Assembly (NCBI GenBank): GCA_945861625.1
Contig: CAMAVI010000008.1
Coordinates: 1 to 64,000, forward strand
Reading direction: 5' to 3'
Source: Candidatus Sulfopaludibacter sp. SbA3
GTDB taxonomy: Bacteria > Acidobacteriota > Terriglobia > Bryobacterales > Bryobacteraceae
DNA length: 64,000 bases
Numbering within the stretch: the stretch's first letter is position 1; the number at the start of each line of letters is the position of its first letter. Both the position numbers and the translations under genes were made by a program. Shown in pieces: positions 29,849 through 40,861 of this stretch. The notes under the pieces were generated by a model. It was not told the origin of the DNA. It worked only from the letters and a program-made list of their open reading frames with translations, and searched no databases.

Positions 29849-31060
29849 CTACTCGCTGCCGCAGTTGGTTGCGAAGGCGGGAGCTACGAATTCGTGCCCG
29901 GCCGGCGTAACCTTGATCGTCCGGATGGCACCCCAAGTGCCCAACGTGCCGATAGACTCTTTGCCGATGGCTACCTCGAGCGCGCCGGAGTTTCCGGATC
30001 GTACCACCGCTAGCCGTGAGAAGGGAACCTCCTCGGCGTCGCCTTTTTTGAATAGCTTCGAAAAGAGGTTCTTGCCATCCACGCAAGCCGTCACCCAACT
30101 TACGTCGGTGGCCTTCAGTGAAATGCGGTTTGCCATGCCGGCGGCGGGGACGGCTACTGTTGCGGAAGACGGGCCCGCCGACGTTTTCGGCGCGAGGGAT
30201 GCGGTTACCGTGCCGGCGCCGCTCGGTCGTGCCGACGGCATGCTAACTGCGGCTGTAGTTGCTGGAGCCGTACGGAGCGGCGTTGTCTTGGCTGGGACTG
30301 TAGTCAGCGAGTTCACCTTGGCCGGAGTTGCGTTCGGCTGGGTTGCGTTCGGCTGGGTTGCGTTCGGCTGTGAAGAGCTCGACGCTGTGGTCGGCGGCGT
30401 GGTGTCCAGCGGAGGCGTCTTCGGCTGAACGGGCCGTGTAGCGGGAGCGCTCGCCTCGGGCGAGGCAGCTTTCTCCGAAGGCTTAGGACCGTGGGACCGC
30501 CAAGGCACGACTCCTCCCGCCCATCCGGCTAACGCAATGCACCCGGCGGCAAGCAGTGCGCCCTGATAATTGAGGACGCGCTTTGCTTTCGGCGGCGCCG
30601 TTTCATTCGGCTGGTCGCCTTCTTTCGGTGTGCTCGTTTCCTTGCGCGGCCCCGTTACTTTCGAACGCGAACTGCGGAATAGTTCGCGCAGCGCCATGGA
30701 ACCCAGGGTGTCCAGCGATTTCCGGAGAACTGGCCGGCCCAATGCCGCCGGCGGGTCCGCTACAGCCGATGCTGCTGTGGTCGGGCCGGACGCGGGACTG
30801 TCCCATTGGTCAATCCGTTCTACGCCGATCTCGAAATGCGATCCGGATCGCACGGAACGGCGGACCTGGGCAAACAAGTGGTAACCGTCCACGGTAAGCC
30901 GGATGGTTTCACCCACCATTAGTGAATGGGCGAGCTCCAGTTGGAAGCCCAGCGCGGAGACGTCCGTGATGCGGCCGTCGAATGTATAAGCTTGATCGCG
31001 AACCACCTCAATGACGGTGGCGGAATCGGTCTTGAATCTTGGCTCAGCCCTCTCATCCAT
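29849..31060 (-). CDS. PilZ protein with transmembrane helix and RodZ-like C-terminal domain
   Basis: 403 residues. The N-terminal PilZ domain (1-90) has both c-di-GMP motifs: RxxxR at Arg4-Arg8 and DVSALG (33-38), the D/NxSxxG motif. A linker leads to one membrane helix (about 162-185). A Pro/Thr/Ala-rich periplasmic stalk then includes three QPNAT repeats (231-245). The last ~80 residues (ATDVSWVTACVDGKNLFSKL ... GNSGALEVAIGKESIGTLG) resemble the DUF4115 domain at the C-terminus of RodZ. This reads as a single-pass protein that could pass a cytoplasmic c-di-GMP signal to the periplasm. The PilZ call is firm; the DUF4115 call is by pattern. Confidence 0.8.
   Translation of the reverse strand: MDERAEPRFKTDSATVIEVVRDQAYTFDGRITDVSALGFQLELAHSLMVGETIRLTVDGYHLFAQVRRSVRSGSHFEIGVERIDQWDSPASGPTTAASAVADPPAALGRPVLRKSLDTLGSMALRELFRSSRSKVTGPRKETSTPKEGDQPNETAPPKAKRVLNYQGALLAAGCIALAGWAGGVVPWRSHGPKPSEKAASPEASAPATRPVQPKTPPLDTTPPTTASSSSQPNATQPNATQPNATPAKVNSLTTVPAKTTPLRTAPATTAAVSMPSARPSGAGTVTASLAPKTSAGPSSATVAVPAAGMANRISLKATDVSWVTACVDGKNLFSKLFKKGDAEEVPFSRLAVVRSGNSGALEVAIGKESIGTLGTWGAIRTIKVTPAGHEFVAPAFATNCGSE
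30327..30371. repeat. 15-bp tandem repeat, three copies
   Basis: The unit GTTGCGTTCGGCTGG is repeated three times at 30327-30341, 30342-30356 and 30357-30371, the last ending in T. It lies in frame within the PilZ gene and encodes the QPNAT repeats of the stalk. Slippage would change stalk length without breaking the frame. Confidence 0.9.
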
Positions 31061-31257: not shown

Positions 31258-32718
31258 TCAGGAAATCAACTTCAGGATCGGGTCGCCCGCAGTGTCGGTC
31301 AGCCGGAAATCGCGGCCCTGGAACTTGTAAGTCAGCTTCAGGTGGTCGAGTCCCAGCAGACGCAATGCCGTGGCGTTCAGATCGTGCACGGAGGCGCGGT
31401 CCACCACGGCGTTGTAGCCAAACTCGTCGGTTTCGCCGTAGCTGATGCCGGGCTTCACGCCGCCGCCCGCCATCCACACGGTGTAACCCTTGGGATGGTG
31501 GTCGCGGCCGAGAAACGGCCCGGGCTGGCGCATGGGCGTGCGGCCGAATTCGCCGGCCCAGATGATGAGCGTGCTGTCCAGAAGCCCTCTCTGCTTGAGG
31601 TCCTTGATCAGCGCCCCGGCGGCGCGGTCCGTCTCACGGCACACCTGCGGAGTCTTGTTGATGACATCCTCATTGTAATTCGTTCCGTGCATGTCCCAGT
31701 TGCGGTGAGCGACCTGGACGAAGCGCACGCCGCGCTCGACCAGGCGCCGCGCTAGCAGGCAATTGTTGGCAAAAGAGGGCCGCCCCGGCGTGGTGCCGTA
31801 CATCTCATGAATGGAGGCCGGTTCCGAAGCCACATCCATCAAACCGGGCACGCTGGTTTGCATCTTGTAAGCCATTTCGTAAGCGGCAATGCGAGTGGCG
31901 ATTTCGGGGTCCTTCTCGACGCGGAGTTCCTCTTGATTCAGCTTGCCGATGACATCGAGCGAACCGCGGCGCATATCGGCGCTCACGCCCTTGGGGTTGG
32001 AAACGAAATTGATCGGGTCGCCGGTCTTCTGGAACGGAATCCCCTGATGGACTGTGGGCAGGAAGCCGCACTCCCAGCAGGCCGCACCACCATCGGGAAC
32101 AGTCACGCCCGACAACATCACTACATAGGCCGGCAGATCCTTGCTTTCGCTGCCGATGCCGTAGGAGAGCCAAGCGCCGAAGGCCGGCCGCAACGGGATT
32201 TGATGTCCCGTCATCTGGAAGACTTGCGCAGGGCCGTGGTTGAACTGCGTGGTGTACATCGACTTAATGAACGACACGTCGTCGACCACTTCCGCGAGTC
32301 CGGGCAGAAGGTGAGAAAGCGTCGCGCCCGATTTTCCGTGCTTCTTAAAGTCAAACGGGGATTTCTGTAGGCTCGGGTTGCCCGTAATAAACGCAAAGCG
32401 TTCGCCTTTGATCAGGCTTTCGGGGATGGGCTCGCCGTCGCGCTTGACCAGTTCCGGCTTGAAGTCAAACAGATCGACGTGCGGAGGCCCGCCGCACTGT
32501 TGCAGGTAGATCACGTGCTTGGCCTTGGGAGCGAAGTCCAGCGGATGGTTGATGGCGCTTTGCGCCAAGCCCTCTTCGGCGAACAAGCTACCCAGCGCGG
32601 CCGAGCCAATTCCGAATGCGGCGCTCTTGCCGAACGCCTCCTCAAAAAAATGCCGCCGCGTAACGTCCACCTGCCGTTGCTGCGCGAGATGTTCTAGTTT
32701 GGTGATGCGTTTGGTCAT
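31258..32718 (-). CDS. DUF1501 Tat-exported protein, pair 2
   Basis: 486 residues. The N-terminal [23 protein letters not shown] is a twin-arginine-type signal. The body is a DUF1501 protein of the alkaline-phosphatase/sulfatase fold: [66 protein letters not shown] and [21 protein letters not shown]. Metal-type Asp/His residues are retained, but no substrate is known for the family. It starts 7 bp after the PSD1 gene, forming the usual PSD1-DUF1501 pair. Confidence 0.9.
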
Positions 32719-32725
32719 GAAAATC

Positions 32726-35700
32726 TCACTTCTTGCTGATGCTCTCGTCCAGGTTCAGCAGCGAGTTGGAAAGCATGGTCCAGGCCGCCAGTTGGGCGTC
32801 CGGCTGTCCGGCCACCTGTTCGGCTTCCTGCGGGTTGCTTTGGTAATATTGCAGGCTCTTTTCGTACCCGGACAGCAGTGCGTCTTTCTCGGAAGCCCGC
32901 GGCACGCGCGAGGTCGCCAGCCGGAACCCGTAAGTGACACGCGACGACGGATCCGCGCCGCCTTCCTTCACGATGCGCTTCGCCATCGCCTGGGCAGCCT
33001 CAAAGAAGGCCGGATCGTTGAGCGTGGTGAGCGCCTGCAGCGGCGTGTCGCTCTTGGTGCGGCGAGCCGTGCAGAACTCGCGCGTCGGTGCGTCGAATAC
33101 AGCCAGCGCGGGATACCGCGCGCTACGGCGCACAAACGTGTAAAGTCCGCGGCGGTAGCGGTCTTCTTGAGGGGAGACCACCCAGCGGTCCGCATCGCCC
33201 TGGTTCACGAAGTTGCCCCACACGCCTTCCGGCTGATACGGCATCACCGGGGACCCGAACATCTTGCTGCTGAGCAAGCCGCTCGCCGACATCGCGATGT
33301 CGCGAATCATTTCGCCTTCCACGCGAATCCGGGGGCCACGCGCCAGAAGAGCGTTGCCGGGATCTTTCTCCAGCAACTCCGGCGTCACGGTAGACGCTTG
33401 GCGGTACGTCGCCGAAGTCACGATCGTGCGCTTGATGGCCTTCATGTCCCAGCCTTTTTCCATGAACTCCACGGCCAGCCAGTCCAGCAGATCGGGATGC
33501 GACGGGGCGAAGCCCTGCGAGCCGAAATCTTCGGCGGTTTCCACAATGCCCCGGCCGAAGATGGTTTCCCAGAAATGGTTGACCGTCACGCGGGCGGGGA
33601 GAGGATTGTCGCGGCTGACCAGCCACTGGGCCAACCCCAGGCGATTATAGGGCGCGCCGGCCGGCATGGGAGCCAGGAATTCGGGCGCGGTGGCCTGCAC
33701 TTCTTCGCCCTTGCTGACGAAAGCTCCGCGCTGCCGGATAAAAGCCTTGGGCCGCGCGACGTTCATGTCTTCGCTCATGATCAGCGCCTTGGGGATGCCC
33801 AGCGCATCGATATCCTTCTTCAAAGACGCGATCTTGTCGCGCAGCGGCTTCAGTTCGCCGTCCAGGGTCCGGAAGTGCGCCACCACGCCCTCGGCCTGCT
33901 CCGCGTTGCGCTCGCCGGCAGGGATGCTCAGCACCGGGCGCAGGCTCGCTTTGACGTCGGCGGCGAACTCGGGATTCGGCGCTGATGTAACCGCGATGCG
34001 GAACTTGCCCAGGTTCACGTTCTTGTATTCAGAGAACTGCTCTAGCGACACGCGCACTACTCCGTTCGCGTCGGCCTGAATCGGCTTATCCGGAATCAGA
34101 ATGAGCTGCGCGCGCACGCGCCCTTCGGTGCCGCCCGTGACCTTCAGGGCTCCGCGCGCGGACTGAAGGGACGCATCCACAACCCAGATCTGCTTAACGC
34201 GGCCCGCCTCGCCGTCCTTATTCTCCAGCGGCGGTGCGTCGATATCGGTGACCACCTGCTTGAAAGTAACTTTCGAGAGTTGCCGTTCGGACGGTCCCAC
34301 TTCCACGCGCACGTCGCGCATCATGAAGTTGCCGTAAAAATCGCGGCCGGGTCCGCCGTGCGGCAGAATCATATCGGGCAGAGCTTCCACGCGAATTCCG
34401 GTGATCTTGGCGAACGGAGCCTTCCCGGTCACTACGTACGTGTCGGCCTCCGGATTCTTGCCGGAAGCCACCACCGATCCGTCAGCCGACGCGGTCAGTG
34501 TCGTGCCGTCGGTCGAAGTCACGCTCGACGGGATCAGCGGCTTCCATTCGCTTTCGAAAGCGACGATTTCGCGCTCCCACTTGATCTGGCGCGCTGTAAA
34601 CGCCGGGATCACTTCGTTCAGTTGCTTCTCGGTGTTCGCGATATCGGCCGTCATGGCGTTGCGCTTGGCTTCCTGCTCGGGGGTCGCCAGGTCCAGCTTC
34701 TTTTCGAAGTAGGTCTTCGCCAGCGAGAAGGCCGTGATGGGACGCTTGGGGTCGCGCACCGGAACGTCGAAGGTGCCGTTGTTGAAGAACGCCACCATCG
34801 AATAGAAATCCTTTTGCGTGAACGGATCGTACTTGTGGTTGTGGCACTGCGCGCAACCGAGCGACGAGCCCAGGAACACGGTACCGATGGTGCTCGCGCG
34901 GTCGACCTGAATCACCCAATGCGCTTCTTCGGGATCCACTCCGCCCTCGGTGATCTGCATGGAGTTGCGCAGGAATCCGGTGGCGATCCTCTGGTCCGTT
35001 GTAGGGTTCGGCAGCATGTCGCCGGCAATCTGTTCCATGGTGAACTGGTCGAACGGCATGTTCTTGTTCAGAGCGCGGATCACCCAATCGCGATAGGGCC
35101 ACGCCACGCGCTGGCGGTCGTTGGTCCAGCCTTCAGAATCCGCATAGCGGGCGTAATCGAGCCACGGCGTCGCCCAGCGCTCGCCGTAGGCAGTCGATGC
35201 AAGCAACCGGTCCACCACTCGCTCGTAAGCGTCCGGGCGCTTGTCGTTCAGGAAAGCATCGATCTCGGCGGGAGTCGGCGGCAGCCCGATCAAGTCCAGG
35301 CTCAGCCGGCGGATCAAGATCTCCCTGGAAGCCTCCGCGGACGGCTTCAGGCCTTCCTTTTCCAGCCGCGCCAGCACGAACCGGTCGATCGGGTTGCGCA
35401 CCCAGGCCGCGTCCTTGACGGTCGGCAGCGCGGACCGGGTGGGCTTCACGTAGGCCCAGTGCTTGGGCTTGGCGGTACCCGCCGCAAGAGCCGGGGCATC
35501 CATCTTGGCGCCTTCGTCGAGCCACTTTTTAATCAGCGCGATTTCAGGCTCGGCCAGCGTACGGCCGGTGGGGGGCATCACCACCCCATCTTTTCCTGTA
35601 ATTCTATGATACAAAAGGCTTCCTGAAGAGTTTCCGGGGACAATCACCTTCCCCGAGACGCTCCCTTTGAGCACCCCCGCGGCCGAATCCAGTTGCAGAT

Positions 35701-35866
35701 CGGCAGGCGCGGCTCCGCCCTGATGACAGCCCTGGCAATTCCTGGTCAGGATGGGCTGGATCTGCGTCGAAAAGACGATCCCCGTATCGGCGGATTGCTG
35801 CGACCAAATCTGTAGCACTGGAAGAATGATCGCAATCAGCAGGATTACGCGCACACGTGTACTCAT
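32726..35866 (-). CDS. PSD1/PSCyt diheme protein, pair 2
   Basis: 1046 residues. A signal-anchor-like N-terminus is followed by PSCyt1 with heme motif CQGCH (Cys44), DUF1549/PSCyt2 ([41 protein letters not shown]) with a second heme motif CAQCH near residue 340, a long beta-rich middle region and C-terminal DUF1553/PSD1 ([62 protein letters not shown]). A secreted diheme protein of unknown function. Its ATG overlaps the stop of a truncated TonB-receptor start (ATGA), so it is probably translated by coupling to that remnant. Confidence 0.9.
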
Positions 35867-36069
35867 ATTAATAAGAGTCCCGCGTCATTCGTCATCGCGG
35901 AGCGTTCGGCACCCGTGCCTTTGTTGACGGCCTTCACGTCCGCCCCGGTGATCACGCTGCCGCTGGGGTCACGCACGTCGCCGGCAATCTCGCCAGATGT
36001 CTGTCCCCAAATAGTGCCCGCCAATAGTGCAACCGCGGCAACCCCAATTAGCCTCGAAAGTAAACGCAT
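35863..36069 (-). pseudogene. TonB-receptor N-terminal remnant, leader of the PSD1 operon
   Basis: 68 residues from the ATG at 36069, preceded by AAGGGGAAACC. The signal peptide (ends TIWGQ) and the first half of a carboxypeptidase-regulatory domain (GEIAGDVRDPSGSVITGADV) are typical of Oar-like receptors, but the frame stops after NDAGLLLI. About 1000 residues of plug and barrel are missing. The stop overlaps the PSD1 start as ATGA. This looks like an internal deletion that joined a receptor start to the PSD1 gene and kept the promoter and ribosome site working for it. A functional leader peptide is possible. Confidence 0.75.
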
Positions 36070-36108
36070 GGTTTCCCCTTGTAACGACCTGAACCTCGGA
36101 TCTTGTCT

Positions 36109-36137
36109 AGTATATAGAATCTTGCGTCGCCTGTAAG
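36109..36137 (-). promoter_or_regulatory. Sigma-70-type promoter upstream of the receptor remnant and PSD1 pair 2
   Basis: Read on the minus strand: CTTACA (36137-36132) as -35, a 17-bp spacer, then TATACT (36114-36109) as -10, five of six to consensus. Transcription would begin about 33 nt before the remnant ATG. Position and spacing both fit. Confidence 0.55.
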
Positions 36138-36215
36138 TAGCTATTTCTAGCCTGTCGCGAAAAGAGACACGGGCGGGGGCATTTCTACCGCGCGCCCACC
36201 GCAACGGACTCTGGC

Positions 36216-37667
36216 TTACGCCAGCGCCTTCTTGATCAGGTTTCCGTGCACATCCGTCAGGCGGAAGTGGCGGCCCTGATACTTGAACGTCAGCTTAGTA
36301 TGGTCGACGCCCATCGTATGCATAACGGTGGTGTTCAGGTCATGCACCGAGACCGGGTCGGTAGCCACGTTATAGCAATAATCGTCGGTTTCTCCGACGC
36401 TGACTCCGGGTTTGACACCGCCCCCCGCCATCCACATGCTAAAGCAGCGCGGATGATGGTCGCGGCCGTAGGCTTCCGGCGTCAGCTTGCCCTGGCAATA
36501 TACGGTTCTGCCGAATTCCCCGCCCCAGACCACCAGCGTGTCTTTCAGCATGTCGCGTTCTTTCAGATCCTGGAGGAGCGCCGCGCAGCCGCGGTCGGTG
36601 TCGCGGGCCTGTCTCTTGATGTTCTCGGCCAAGTTGGAGTGATGGTCCCAACCCCGATGATAGGCCTGGATCACGCGCACCCCGCGCTCCGCCAGACGCC
36701 GCGCCATCAGACAGTTGGCCGCAAAGGTACCCGGCGTCTTGGCGTCCGGACCGTAGAGGTCCATCGTGTGCGCGCTTTCCTTGGACATATCCGTCAGCTC
36801 CGGCACCGAGGATTGCATGCGGAACGCCATCTCGTACTGCGCGATGCGCGTGTTGATTTCCGGATCGTTGAACTCGTCGTAACGCATCTGGTTGAACTTC
36901 CCCAGATCGTTCACGAAACGTTCCCGCTGATTTTTCTCAAAGCCCTCGGGATCGGTAATGTAGAGAACCGGATCGCCGGTCGAGCGCAGCTTCACCCCCT
37001 GATAACGGGTGGGCAGAAAGCCCGTGCCCCACAGACGGTCCGCCAGCGGCTGGCCGGCGGAGCCGGTCTTCGGCGCCGACACCATCACCACGAATGTAGG
37101 CAGGTCCTTGTTGGCGGTTCCCAGTCCATAAGACAGCCAGGCGCCCACGCTGGGCCGTCCGGCCAACTGGAAACCGGTCATCGCAAACGTCGTCGCCGGA
37201 TCGTGATTGATCTGCTCGGTGTTCATCGTTTTGATGATGCACAGATCGTCGGCCATCTTGGCGGTCTCCGGCAGCAACTCGCTGAACCAGTGCCCGCTCT
37301 GGCCGTGCTGGGCGAACTTGAAAATCGGCGGGGCCACCGGGAAGCCGGTTTGCGTCGCCGTCATGCTGGTCAGGCGCTGATTGCCGCGGACCGATGCCGG
37401 CAGGTCGGTTCCGGCCCACTTCTCCAGCATCGGCTTATGGTCCAGCAGCTCCAGTGTGGACGGTCCGCCGGATTGGAACAGATAAATGACGCGCTTCGCC
37501 GTCGGCGCAAAATGCGGAAGGCCGGGCAGCGCACCGCTGACTTCCTCGGCTCCCAGGTCTTCCCTCAATAGATGCGCCAGCGCTGCCATGCCCACGCCGG
37601 TCGCCGTGCGGCCAAAAAAGTGACGGCGGGTCAGCGCCGCGGCGATTTCGTTTCTTGGGTCGGCCAT
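36216..37667 (-). CDS. DUF1501 Tat-exported protein, pair 1
   Basis: 483 residues. The signal LTRRHFFGRTATGVGMAALAHLL contains twin arginines. DUF1501 motifs are KRVIYLFQSGGPSTLELLDHKP, INHDPATTFAMTGFQ, RPSVGAWLSYGLG, LVVWGGEFGRTVY and YGRDHHPRCFSMWMAGGG. It follows the PSD1 gene by 5 bp. Similar in size and motif set to the second DUF1501 in the window, so the pairs look like old duplicates. Confidence 0.9.
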   Translation of the reverse strand: MADPRNEIAAALTRRHFFGRTATGVGMAALAHLLREDLGAEEVSGALPGLPHFAPTAKRVIYLFQSGGPSTLELLDHKPMLEKWAGTDLPASVRGNQRLTSMTATQTGFPVAPPIFKFAQHGQSGHWFSELLPETAKMADDLCIIKTMNTEQINHDPATTFAMTGFQLAGRPSVGAWLSYGLGTANKDLPTFVVMVSAPKTGSAGQPLADRLWGTGFLPTRYQGVKLRSTGDPVLYITDPEGFEKNQRERFVNDLGKFNQMRYDEFNDPEINTRIAQYEMAFRMQSSVPELTDMSKESAHTMDLYGPDAKTPGTFAANCLMARRLAERGVRVIQAYHRGWDHHSNLAENIKRQARDTDRGCAALLQDLKERDMLKDTLVVWGGEFGRTVYCQGKLTPEAYGRDHHPRCFSMWMAGGGVKPGVSVGETDDYCYNVATDPVSVHDLNTTVMHTMGVDHTKLTFKYQGRHFRLTDVHGNLIKKALA

Positions 37668-37672
37668 ATGGG

Positions 37673-40600
37673 TTATTCCTTTGTATTGGTTTCGTCGAGA
37701 TTCATGATGAAGCTGGTGAGCGTGGAGTACGCCGCGAGCTGGCTCACATTCAGCTTCTGATCGCGCGGATACTCGCCCTGACTCACGTACTTCAGAGCGG
37801 CTTCCGGCTTGGACTGGAAGGCGTCCAACTGGAAGTTGAACGATTCCATCAGCATTTGCACTTCCTTGGGACTGGGCTGCCGGCCGGTGACCCGCCGGAA
37901 CGTCCAGCGAATGCGGTCTTCGGGCTTGGCGCCGCCCTCCGCCATGGCCTTCTGGGCCAGCACGCGCGCGGATTCCAGGAACGCCACATCATTCATCAGA
38001 TCCAGCGCCTGCAACGGCGTATTGGTAATGTTCTGCCGCACAACGTGGCTTTCGCGCGCGGCGGCGTCGAAGTTCGCCATGGTGGGCGGCGGAATCGTCC
38101 GCTTCCAGAAGGTGTACAGGCTCCGGCGGTACAGCTTGTCGCCGTGATCCTGGACGTACTTGGCGGCGGATAGATCGGCCCACAACCCATCGGGCTGATA
38201 CGGCATCACCGAGGGGCCGCCGAGCTGGTTGGCCAGCAATCCGGAAACGGCCAATGCCTGATCCCGCACCATCGGCGCGGCCAGGCGGAAACGCGGCCCG
38301 TGCGAGAATAACCGGTTTTCCGGATCCCTCTGCACCATGTCCGGCGTGGTCTTGGACGACTGCTGATACGTCGCGCTCATCACAATGGTCTTCTGGAAGG
38401 CTTTGACGTCCCATCCGATGCGGATGAACTCGGTCGCCAGCCAATCGAGCAGTTCAGGATTCGCAGGAGCATCGCCCTGCGACCCAAAGTCCTCCACCGA
38501 CTTCACGAGGCCCACTCCGAAATACTGCTGCCAGAAACGGTTCACCGTCACGCGCGACATCAGCGGGTTGGACGGTTCCACCAGCCACTGGGCCAACCCC
38601 AACCGGTTGGGCGGGTACTTGGCGGCGATGTTGGCCGGAACCAGGAATCCGGGTAGGGTGGGAGTCACCTTGTCCCCCGGCCGGTTGTATTCACCGCGAA
38701 TCAATACGTGGGACTCACGCGGCGTGGCCATCTCTTCCATCACCATCACGGTCGGGATGGTCATGCTGTAGGTGTCGCGTTTGGCCTTGGTGTCCAGCAT
38801 CTGGTTATAGGCCGCCTTGATCTCGGCCGGCGCCAGATTCTCCAGGAAGTAGTCCCGCAGCTTGTCGGCCTGCGCCTTGCTTCTCTGGGCTTCCGGCATG
38901 GCCGCGATTTCATTCACCGGAGTGGCGTCCGCCAGCACGGCGACTTCAGCCACCGGCAGCGCCCGCTTGTAAATGCGCACATCTTCGATGCTGCCGCGGA
39001 AGCGGTTCTGCGGACCACCGCCCGCGCCGATGCGCAGGGATTCCCGCTTCAACGGTTGCGAGTTATTGATGTCGTCCAGGAGAACCTTGAACTTCCATTC
39101 CTGGCCGTCGACATACAGCTTCACGTTCGCGGCGTACCGCCCGCCATCATAAGACACCGTCACCTGGTGCCACTGGTTCAGATCCAGGGTTTTCTCGGAT
39201 TCAATACGGATGCCGTCGTCAAACCAGGCGTCCACATAGTTGAACTGCAGCTTGCCGTCTTTCAACTGCAAGCCGTAGCCCTCCGGTTCCGTTACATCCT
39301 GGGACTTGCTGATGATCGAACCAGTCGCGGCCGTGGGATAAATCCAGGCTCCCATCGTGATCGGGTCGTCCTGATAGCCGTTGCTGCTGAACCCGGCTGC
39401 GTCGCCATCCTGAATATAGGCTTTGCCGTCGAAGCTGGCTGCTTGGCCCAAGCGCCCCTTCACCAGGCTGACAGTGCCGTCTTTCAGCTCCGCCGAAGCC
39501 GGCTTCGCGTCTTTATCGCCGACGAAAGTCTTCGCCTTAAACTCACCACTAAACGGGTAGTGCGCCACGAGGTCGCGAGAGGAACCCCAATGCACGGCTT
39601 TCGACTTGTCCGCAGTCCGCTCCCAGGCCTTCTGCGCCTGCGCCAGTTTGGACTCCAGACCGGTAAACTTCTTGGCCGCCGCGGAAGCCGCCTCGTCGAA
39701 CTGCTTCAGCTTCGCCGAATGCTCGGGCAGCGGAGCCTGAATGAACGGCGGCGAGTTTCCGTAGCGGCGGGCTTTCCCAAATTCCGGAATGTTGTTGAAA
39801 TAGGCAAAGGTCGAATACACGTCCTTTTGCGTAATCGGATCGTACTTGTGGTCGTGGCAGCGCGCGCAGCCCAGCGTCAACCCCATGAACACCGTTCCAG
39901 TAGTATCCACGCGGTCGAGCACGTACTCCACCTGATATTCCTCGGGAACGATCCCGCCTTCGGCGTTGCCGCGGTGATTGCGGTTGAAGCCGGTGGCGAT
40001 CTTCTGGTCGAGCGTCGCGTTGGGCAACAGGTCGCCGGCGATCTGCTCGGTGGTGAAGCGGTCATACCGCATGTTCTGGTTGAACGCGTTGATCACCCAG
40101 TCGCGCCAGCGCCACATGAAGCGCTCGCCGTCGGACTGATACCCGCTGGTGTCGGCGTAACGCGCGGCCTCCAGCCAGGTAAACGCCATGCGCTCGCCAT
40201 AGCGCGGCGAAGCCAGCAGACGGTCCACGACTTTCTCATAAGCGTTCGCCGACTTGTCGGCTACGAAGGCATCAATTTCGGCGGTCGCCGGCGGCAGACC
40301 CGTCAAATCAAAAGTCACGCGCCGCAGCAGCGTCGCGCGGTCGGCCTGGGGTGACGGCTTCAAGCCTTCGCGATCCAGGCGCGCCAAGACGAAGTTATCG
40401 ATTCCGTTGCGCGGCCACTTGGCGTCGCTCACTTTGGCCAACTCGGGACGCACCGGCGGAATGAACGACCAATGCTGCTGCCAAGTCGCGCCCTGCTCCA
40501 CCCACTTCCGGATCACCGCCACTTCCCGCTCGCTCAGCGGTTCTCCATTCATGGGCATCCGCGCGCCCGGACCCGCGCCGGTGATGCGGTTGATCATCAC

Positions 40601-40861
40601 GCTCTTGGCCGGATCGCCCGCAACGATTGCAAAACGGCCCCCGTTCAACTCGTGCTTGGCGCCTTCTTCGCGGTCGAAGCGGATGGTCCCCGACTGCCTG
40701 CCAGGCCCATGGCATGCGTAGCATTTGTCCGACAGAATCGGCCGGACATCCCGGTTGAACTCGACCTTGGCGGGAATGGCTTCCTCAGCAGCAGGCAGGG
40801 CCGTTGAAATCGTAAATGCCAGGACTCCAACCGTAACTTTCCAATAACTTGGCGTTCCCAT
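37673..40861 (-). CDS. PSD1/PSCyt diheme protein with LamG-like domain, pair 1
   Basis: 1062 residues. A signal peptide (ends ALPAAEE) precedes PSCyt1 with CYACH (Cys47), DUF1549 (RNGIDNFVLARLDREGLKPS, VTFDLTGLPPATAEIDAF) with CARCH near residue 332, then an inserted concanavalin-like LamG domain (about residues 425-640: LVAHYPFSGEF, ITMGAWIYPTAATGSIISKS, WHQVTVSYDGGRYAANVKLYVDG, FRGSIEDVRIYKRAL), and C-terminal DUF1553 ([41 protein letters not shown]). The LamG domain suggests carbohydrate or protein binding. First gene of the minus-strand run, with an operator-like palindrome upstream. Confidence 0.9.
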   Translation of the reverse strand: MGTPSYWKVTVGVLAFTISTALPAAEEAIPAKVEFNRDVRPILSDKCYACHGPGRQSGTIRFDREEGAKHELNGGRFAIVAGDPAKSVMINRITGAGPGARMPMNGEPLSEREVAVIRKWVEQGATWQQHWSFIPPVRPELAKVSDAKWPRNGIDNFVLARLDREGLKPSPQADRATLLRRVTFDLTGLPPATAEIDAFVADKSANAYEKVVDRLLASPRYGERMAFTWLEAARYADTSGYQSDGERFMWRWRDWVINAFNQNMRYDRFTTEQIAGDLLPNATLDQKIATGFNRNHRGNAEGGIVPEEYQVEYVLDRVDTTGTVFMGLTLGCARCHDHKYDPITQKDVYSTFAYFNNIPEFGKARRYGNSPPFIQAPLPEHSAKLKQFDEAASAAAKKFTGLESKLAQAQKAWERTADKSKAVHWGSSRDLVAHYPFSGEFKAKTFVGDKDAKPASAELKDGTVSLVKGRLGQAASFDGKAYIQDGDAAGFSSNGYQDDPITMGAWIYPTAATGSIISKSQDVTEPEGYGLQLKDGKLQFNYVDAWFDDGIRIESEKTLDLNQWHQVTVSYDGGRYAANVKLYVDGQEWKFKVLLDDINNSQPLKRESLRIGAGGGPQNRFRGSIEDVRIYKRALPVAEVAVLADATPVNEIAAMPEAQRSKAQADKLRDYFLENLAPAEIKAAYNQMLDTKAKRDTYSMTIPTVMVMEEMATPRESHVLIRGEYNRPGDKVTPTLPGFLVPANIAAKYPPNRLGLAQWLVEPSNPLMSRVTVNRFWQQYFGVGLVKSVEDFGSQGDAPANPELLDWLATEFIRIGWDVKAFQKTIVMSATYQQSSKTTPDMVQRDPENRLFSHGPRFRLAAPMVRDQALAVSGLLANQLGGPSVMPYQPDGLWADLSAAKYVQDHGDKLYRRSLYTFWKRTIPPPTMANFDAAARESHVVRQNITNTPLQALDLMNDVAFLESARVLAQKAMAEGGAKPEDRIRWTFRRVTGRQPSPKEVQMLMESFNFQLDAFQSKPEAALKYVSQGEYPRDQKLNVSQLAAYSTLTSFIMNLDETNTKE

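Follow-up and report, generated by a model that had tools for sequence, protein, structure and literature searches.

To our knowledge, few links are known that lead directly from c-di-GMP to cell shape or the growth of the wall, and the binding partner of the periplasmic domain of RodZ is, as far as we know, an open question in the field. RodZ contacts MreB through its cytoplasmic HTH domain, and the receptor LapD senses c-di-GMP via a degenerate EAL domain, not a PilZ domain. The periplasmic domain of E. coli RodZ is largely dispensable for rod shape and may contact the divisome, and the periplasmic disordered part of RodZ self-associates (PMC6946637). For B. subtilis RodZ, NMR led to a prediction of nine strands in the folded domain of the periplasmic region, which follows a disordered stretch (PMC6946637). 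RxxxR and DxSxxG are the c-di-GMP-binding motifs of PilZ domains, and mutating their residues in Alg44 abolishes both c-di-GMP binding and alginate (PMC12564702).

The window analysed here, a stretch of 64,000 nucleotides from Candidatus Sulfopaludibacter sp. SbA3 (a MAG of 3.8 Mb, 94% complete), encodes a protein that joins a PilZ domain, through a single predicted transmembrane (TM) segment, to RodZ_C, the present name of DUF4115. Its features are as follows.

29849..31060, minus strand: PilZ-TM-RodZ_C protein, 403 aa, ATG start, stop included in the coordinates
30818..31051, minus strand: PilZ domain, residues 4-81 (Pfam PF07238; AlphaFold2 barrel 9-82)
31037..31051, minus strand: RxxxR motif, R4-AEP-R8; R4, E6 and R8 unchanged across the eight aligned fusion PilZ domains (one RxxR copy gapped)
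30947..30964, minus strand: DxSxxG motif, D33-VSAL-G38; D33, S35 and G38 unchanged across the eight aligned fusion PilZ domains
30674..30721, minus strand: predicted helix 114-129 past the PilZ barrel (AlphaFold2, low confidence)
30506..30562, minus strand: single TM segment, residues 167-185 (hydropathy 1.83; helix 167-181 in the model)
30137..30505, minus strand: Pro/Thr/Ala/Ser-rich linker, residues 186-308, with QPNAT repeats and without predicted structure (dN/dS 0.58 versus the ortholog)
29915..30118, minus strand: RodZ_C domain, residues 315-382 (Pfam PF13464; nine predicted strands at 311-392)
30083..30085, minus strand: Cys326, first of a conserved Cys pair, co-occurring with Cys400
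29861..29863, minus strand: Cys400, second of the pair, co-occurring with Cys326

Both ends of the protein were recognised by Pfam profiles, RodZ_C with 33.3 bits (E 4.6e-8, cut-off 23.9) and PilZ with 23.2 bits (E 9.2e-5, cut-off 22.5); the PilZ domain of a second copy in the same genome scored 27.8 bits. A sequence-only reading had placed a PilZ domain with intact c-di-GMP motifs at the N-terminus, a DUF4115-like domain at the C-terminus and one membrane crossing between them. The profile searches bore out both domains, R4/R8 and D33-V-S35-A-L-G38 were present and kept across the fusion family, and a single hydrophobic segment (residues 167-185, mean hydropathy 1.83) was predicted between PilZ and RodZ_C. 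It is followed on its C-terminal side by the linker of about 120 residues with its QPNAT repeats. The Pfam scan gave neither an HTH nor a membrane-fusion-type match in the window protein, which is not a RodZ: the N-terminal HTH_25 is absent and PilZ stands there instead. A chance Pfam match was ruled out, since both cut-offs were passed by six tested fusion proteins from two genera; together with purifying selection at both ends, this makes the architecture more than a product of chance.

In close pairs, dN/dS was 0.14 and 0.16 for PilZ and 0.11 and 0.23 for RodZ_C, and reached 0.58 (window linker versus ortholog) and 0.43 for the longer linkers; one stretch past PilZ gave 0.18, with near-saturated dS. 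Both ends are under purifying selection and the linkers are loosely constrained. These values bear on the proposal that RodZ_C is a mere anchor, holding a c-di-GMP-responsive PilZ domain at one site of the envelope, and that PilZ acts on a cytoplasmic partner, as YcgR does, with no signal crossing the membrane. Selection on RodZ_C as strong as that on PilZ speaks against an anchor, as does the persistence of PilZ-less TM-RodZ_C relatives, which points to a separate function for the periplasmic part. Tight transmembrane coupling is nevertheless hard to picture across some 120 poorly conserved residues, and most other PilZ proteins of the genus are short and lack RodZ_C. We consider the anchor unlikely.

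In an alignment of eight fusion PilZ domains, the invariant positions were M1, R4, E6, R8, D33, S35, G38, G73 and G79, the majority of them belonging to the RxxxR and DxSxxG motifs. Because the ligand residues are invariant, we infer that the window PilZ domain binds c-di-GMP. That the domain has lost its ligand and now plays a structural or dimerisation role would fit the window score, which lies barely above the cut-off (23.2 versus 22.5), and the RxxR in place of RxxxR in one member (G017, gapped in the alignment). We regard such a loss as improbable, given that the ligand residues are among the few positions kept while identity to the window copy has fallen to just 21-28%.

Structure prediction agreed with the assignment of the N-terminal part, which is predicted to fold like c-di-GMP-bound PilZ domains. 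Built on a three-row alignment, the full-length AlphaFold2 model is of low confidence as a whole (pTM 0.29), and pLDDT in the two domains is about 65-80; its order is a PilZ-like barrel (9-82), helix 114-129, the TM helix, an unstructured linker (186-308) and nine strands (311-392). The predicted PilZ part has the six-strand barrel, with strands at 9-82 and pLDDT of about 70-80. Its structural neighbours were headed by PilZ chains, mostly c-di-GMP-bound: PA0012 (Z 10.0, rmsd 2.1, 76 residues aligned), VCA0042 (Z 10.0) and E. coli BcsA (Z 9.9), with the Alg44 PilZ structure 4rt0 also among the matches (Z 7.8). When the model was superposed on PilZ chains such as BcsA, the aligned region often extended to residues 122-131. 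A PDB sequence search with the PilZ or the RodZ_C domain found no relative, and it was the fold search that then brought up PilZ.

At the other end, the nine strands appeared again when the C-terminal part was modelled alone, and the predicted nine-strand domain past a disordered linker corresponds to the description of the RodZ periplasmic domain (PMC6946637). A fold search with this model returned SpyCatcher first (Z 6.8) and carbohydrate-binding modules next; we rejected any reading of function from these matches, Z 6.8 being too weak. Every fusion member examined has a single TM segment. The charges flanking that of the window protein (+1 on the N-side, +2 on the C-side) give no clear N-in signal by the positive-inside rule. 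Two cysteines 74-76 residues apart, one early in RodZ_C and the other just past the last strand, occur together in 8 of the 12 family members examined and are missing together from the other four, counts that reflect shared ancestry and are not independent. Their co-occurrence fits a disulfide and an oxidising compartment, which suggests a periplasmic RodZ_C. A PilZ domain outside the cytoplasm would have no ligand. Taken together, the putative disulfide and the confinement of the PilZ ligand to the cytoplasm make an N-in/C-out orientation likely.

The same MAG carries five RodZ_C proteins, among them a canonical HTH_25-TM-RodZ (L001), a long coiled-coil-like protein with RodZ_C (L002), a TM-RodZ_C protein without PilZ (L003) and a second PilZ-TM-RodZ_C (L004). 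A narrow-alignment scan of genome contigs gave two loci only, and across 396 sampled Acidobacteriota genomes the PilZ profile was found at E 1e-12 in a long frame only in the genome of the window. A subsequent, denser search within the family added a further genus, g46. In total, PilZ-TM-RodZ_C was found in 12 proteins from 9 genomes, in two genera of one acidobacterial family, a count that leaves out the G002 ortholog of the window protein, which is truncated by the end of its contig. Among 23 genomes of the window's own genus, fusions occur in G000, the genome of the window (two), G009, G011, G012, G013, G015 and, weakly, G017; of these, G011, G012, G009 and G017 lie under the Pfam cut-off in at least one domain and were assigned by purpose-built profiles and alignments. 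Two g46 genomes have two fusions each, one form with an extra N-terminal Cys-containing stretch. As far as searched within Acidobacteriota, the architecture was found in this one family.

In a tree of 72 RodZ_C domains, a single branch (support 99/95, 100% of bootstrap trees) separated 15 rows, all the included fusions together with PilZ-less relatives, from every canonical RodZ and coiled-coil-like protein; G017 was left out, and with few columns the inner forks are unsure. This single clade makes one origin of the fusion most likely, and independent origins are not favoured. PilZ-less forms exist: G000:C114 holds a TM-RodZ_C member without PilZ, G005 has a complete PilZ ORF and a TM-RodZ_C ORF apart, near two contig ends, and G010 has a PilZ-like remnant immediately upstream of TM-RodZ_C. 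The two-gene forms in G005 and G010 might suggest that two adjacent genes had been read as one through an annotation or assembly artefact. This is refuted by the independent genomes, since 12 single-frame fusions in 9 genomes, each with a TM segment between the domains, fall in one clade, and we give it next to no credence. The simplest account of the split forms is that a fused ancestor underwent fission or decay. In G002, the ortholog of the second PilZ-TM protein (L097:7692-8660, contig C28) has a shifted-frame C-terminus that resembles an SH3-like domain (SH3_3, E 0.01, under the cut-off) and not RodZ_C, which may reflect either a frameshift or a domain swap.

RodZ_C has a second use outside RodZ. 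The L002-type proteins (L002:154-1758, L088-L092), found in many genomes of the genus, consist of a conserved N-terminal domain (MARLRIRIELNRGG...), a coiled-coil-like middle, a TM segment and RodZ_C; their N-terminal part had no Pfam match.

In the genome of the window, a REC-GGDEF protein carries GGEEF and an RxxD site, and there are also an EAL protein and one of the TM-HD-GYP-GAF-GGDEF type. With activities read from motifs, c-di-GMP can probably be both made and removed. Ten PilZ matches, MreB and the canonical HTH-RodZ are present as well. An 842-aa ORF on the minus strand of G000 contig C49 (L109) has membrane segments followed by HD-GYP, GAF and GGDEF domains, the last with the signature GGNEF; it may be a phosphodiesterase whose cyclase domain is degenerate. 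In G015, three domains, EAL-HDOD-PilZ, share one chain (L121, G015:C177 from 33000).

The window gene itself is flanked on one side by a phosphatidylethanolamine-binding-protein (PEBP) family gene, a side common to the G002 ortholog, whose opposite side is cut by the contig end. On the other flank lie genes that presumably resemble DUF1501/DUF1549. Window positions 31258-40861 are taken up by long minus-strand genes arranged as two tandem pairs, whose products we take to resemble DUF1501 and DUF1549/DUF1553 (planctomycete-type cytochrome) proteins. The window gene adjoins no gene for wall, shape or c-di-GMP, and a promoter scan gave no match. No synteny of the fusions with wall genes was found, and the gene order around the window gene is common only to the G002 ortholog. 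In G013, a tight same-strand run with short gaps comprises EAL-HDOD, PilZ-TM-RodZ_C and a single PilZ gene; this run is the sole direct genomic tie of the fusions to c-di-GMP, and their tie to the envelope is weak. The fusion gene adjoins a gene resembling prolyl oligopeptidase in G009, G012 and G015. The paralog on G000:C75 is the last gene of a same-strand run common to G002, namely a 771-aa protein, TPR, GYD and PilZ-TM-RodZ_C. The 771-aa protein of this four-gene run (L095:1528-6879) has an N-terminal cysteine ribbon and one hydrophobic stretch, and had no Pfam match. A resemblance by eye between the cysteine-rich N-termini of the L095 upstream protein and L134 was dropped after BLASTP came back empty.

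The reading that we favour, and hold to be rather probable, is a single-pass inner-membrane c-di-GMP receptor of Alg44-like design, with a cytoplasmic PilZ domain and RodZ_C as its periplasmic output. The N-terminal PilZ domain would bind c-di-GMP, and the TM helix and long flexible linker would tether it to the RodZ_C beta-domain, which in most members a disulfide probably stabilises. By analogy with Alg44, ligand binding would shift the oligomeric state, position or recruitment of the receptor, and this change would in turn alter how RodZ_C engages an envelope partner. The sequences show the architecture and its conservation, the single clade, the invariant motifs and the selection at both ends; ligand binding, topology and signal transmission are inferred. 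As to the partner, our guess is a morphogenetic or peptidoglycan-synthesis protein, or perhaps RodZ itself. The PilZ-less members (G000:C114, G005, G010) count against the receptor reading, as the RodZ_C part can exist alone, and so do a window gene without a c-di-GMP or cell-wall neighbour, the indecisive flanking charges and the low overall confidence of the full-length model.

A narrower version of the receptor reading, differing in the partner, has the protein regulate exopolysaccharide export or another envelope machine, as Alg44 does, rather than shape or peptidoglycan. Polysaccharide synthesis is the process served by Alg44, to date the known receptor of PilZ-TM-periplasmic build (PMC12564702), and the genes that come after the fusion in G009 and G012 encode a toast_rack/LiaF-like envelope protein and dTDP-sugar functions. 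No synthase or exporter was recognised beside the inspected fusions, most neighbours having been read by eye, and we hold this version as doubtful.

A route leading directly from c-di-GMP to the wall, part of what the sequence-only reading proposed, is not supported in that form. The MreB-binding part of RodZ is the very part replaced by PilZ, the E. coli RodZ periplasmic domain can largely be spared in rod-shape maintenance (PMC6946637), and the window gene adjoins no wall or shape gene. The fusion RodZ_C clade also lies apart from canonical RodZ, so the partner may differ. A c-di-GMP-controlled counterpart of RodZ, whose RodZ_C would join or compete with the elongation or division machinery and let c-di-GMP directly tune envelope growth, appears rather unlikely.

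On the receptor reading, the fusion points to a connection, so far undescribed, that would link c-di-GMP signalling with the envelope. The family kept RodZ_C and swapped the MreB-binding half for a c-di-GMP sensor, and the other group swapped it for a long coiled-coil-like protein; evolution has thus treated RodZ_C as a portable periplasmic module. The fusion family offers a ready test of the role of RodZ_C apart from MreB.

The window protein resembles RodZ (HTH_25-TM-RodZ_C) in its C-terminal PF13464 domain and in the order of cytoplasmic module, TM segment, disordered linker and nine-strand domain (PMC6946637). Unlike in RodZ, PilZ replaces the MreB-binding HTH; a separate canonical RodZ (L001) is present in the genome and the RodZ_C clades are distinct. 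With LapD and related receptors it would share inside-out signalling, in which c-di-GMP is sensed in the cytoplasm and the output lies in the periplasm (PMC3032545, PMC5231407). The periplasmic domain of LapD acts on the protease LapG. The sequence-only reading knew of no described family with this arrangement, and we likewise found no description of PilZ joined to RodZ or DUF4115 in open-access papers. Alg44 of Pseudomonas aeruginosa, which acts in alginate synthesis, likewise has an N-terminal PilZ domain with RxxxR and DxSxxG, a membrane segment and a periplasmic domain. The Alg44 gene lies in the alginate cluster, whereas no polysaccharide operon was recognised beside the window gene, and the periplasmic part of Alg44 is a membrane-fusion domain where that of the window protein is RodZ_C. 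PilZ-TM-periplasmic receptors are already known from Alg44; RodZ_C as their output is, as far as searched, new.
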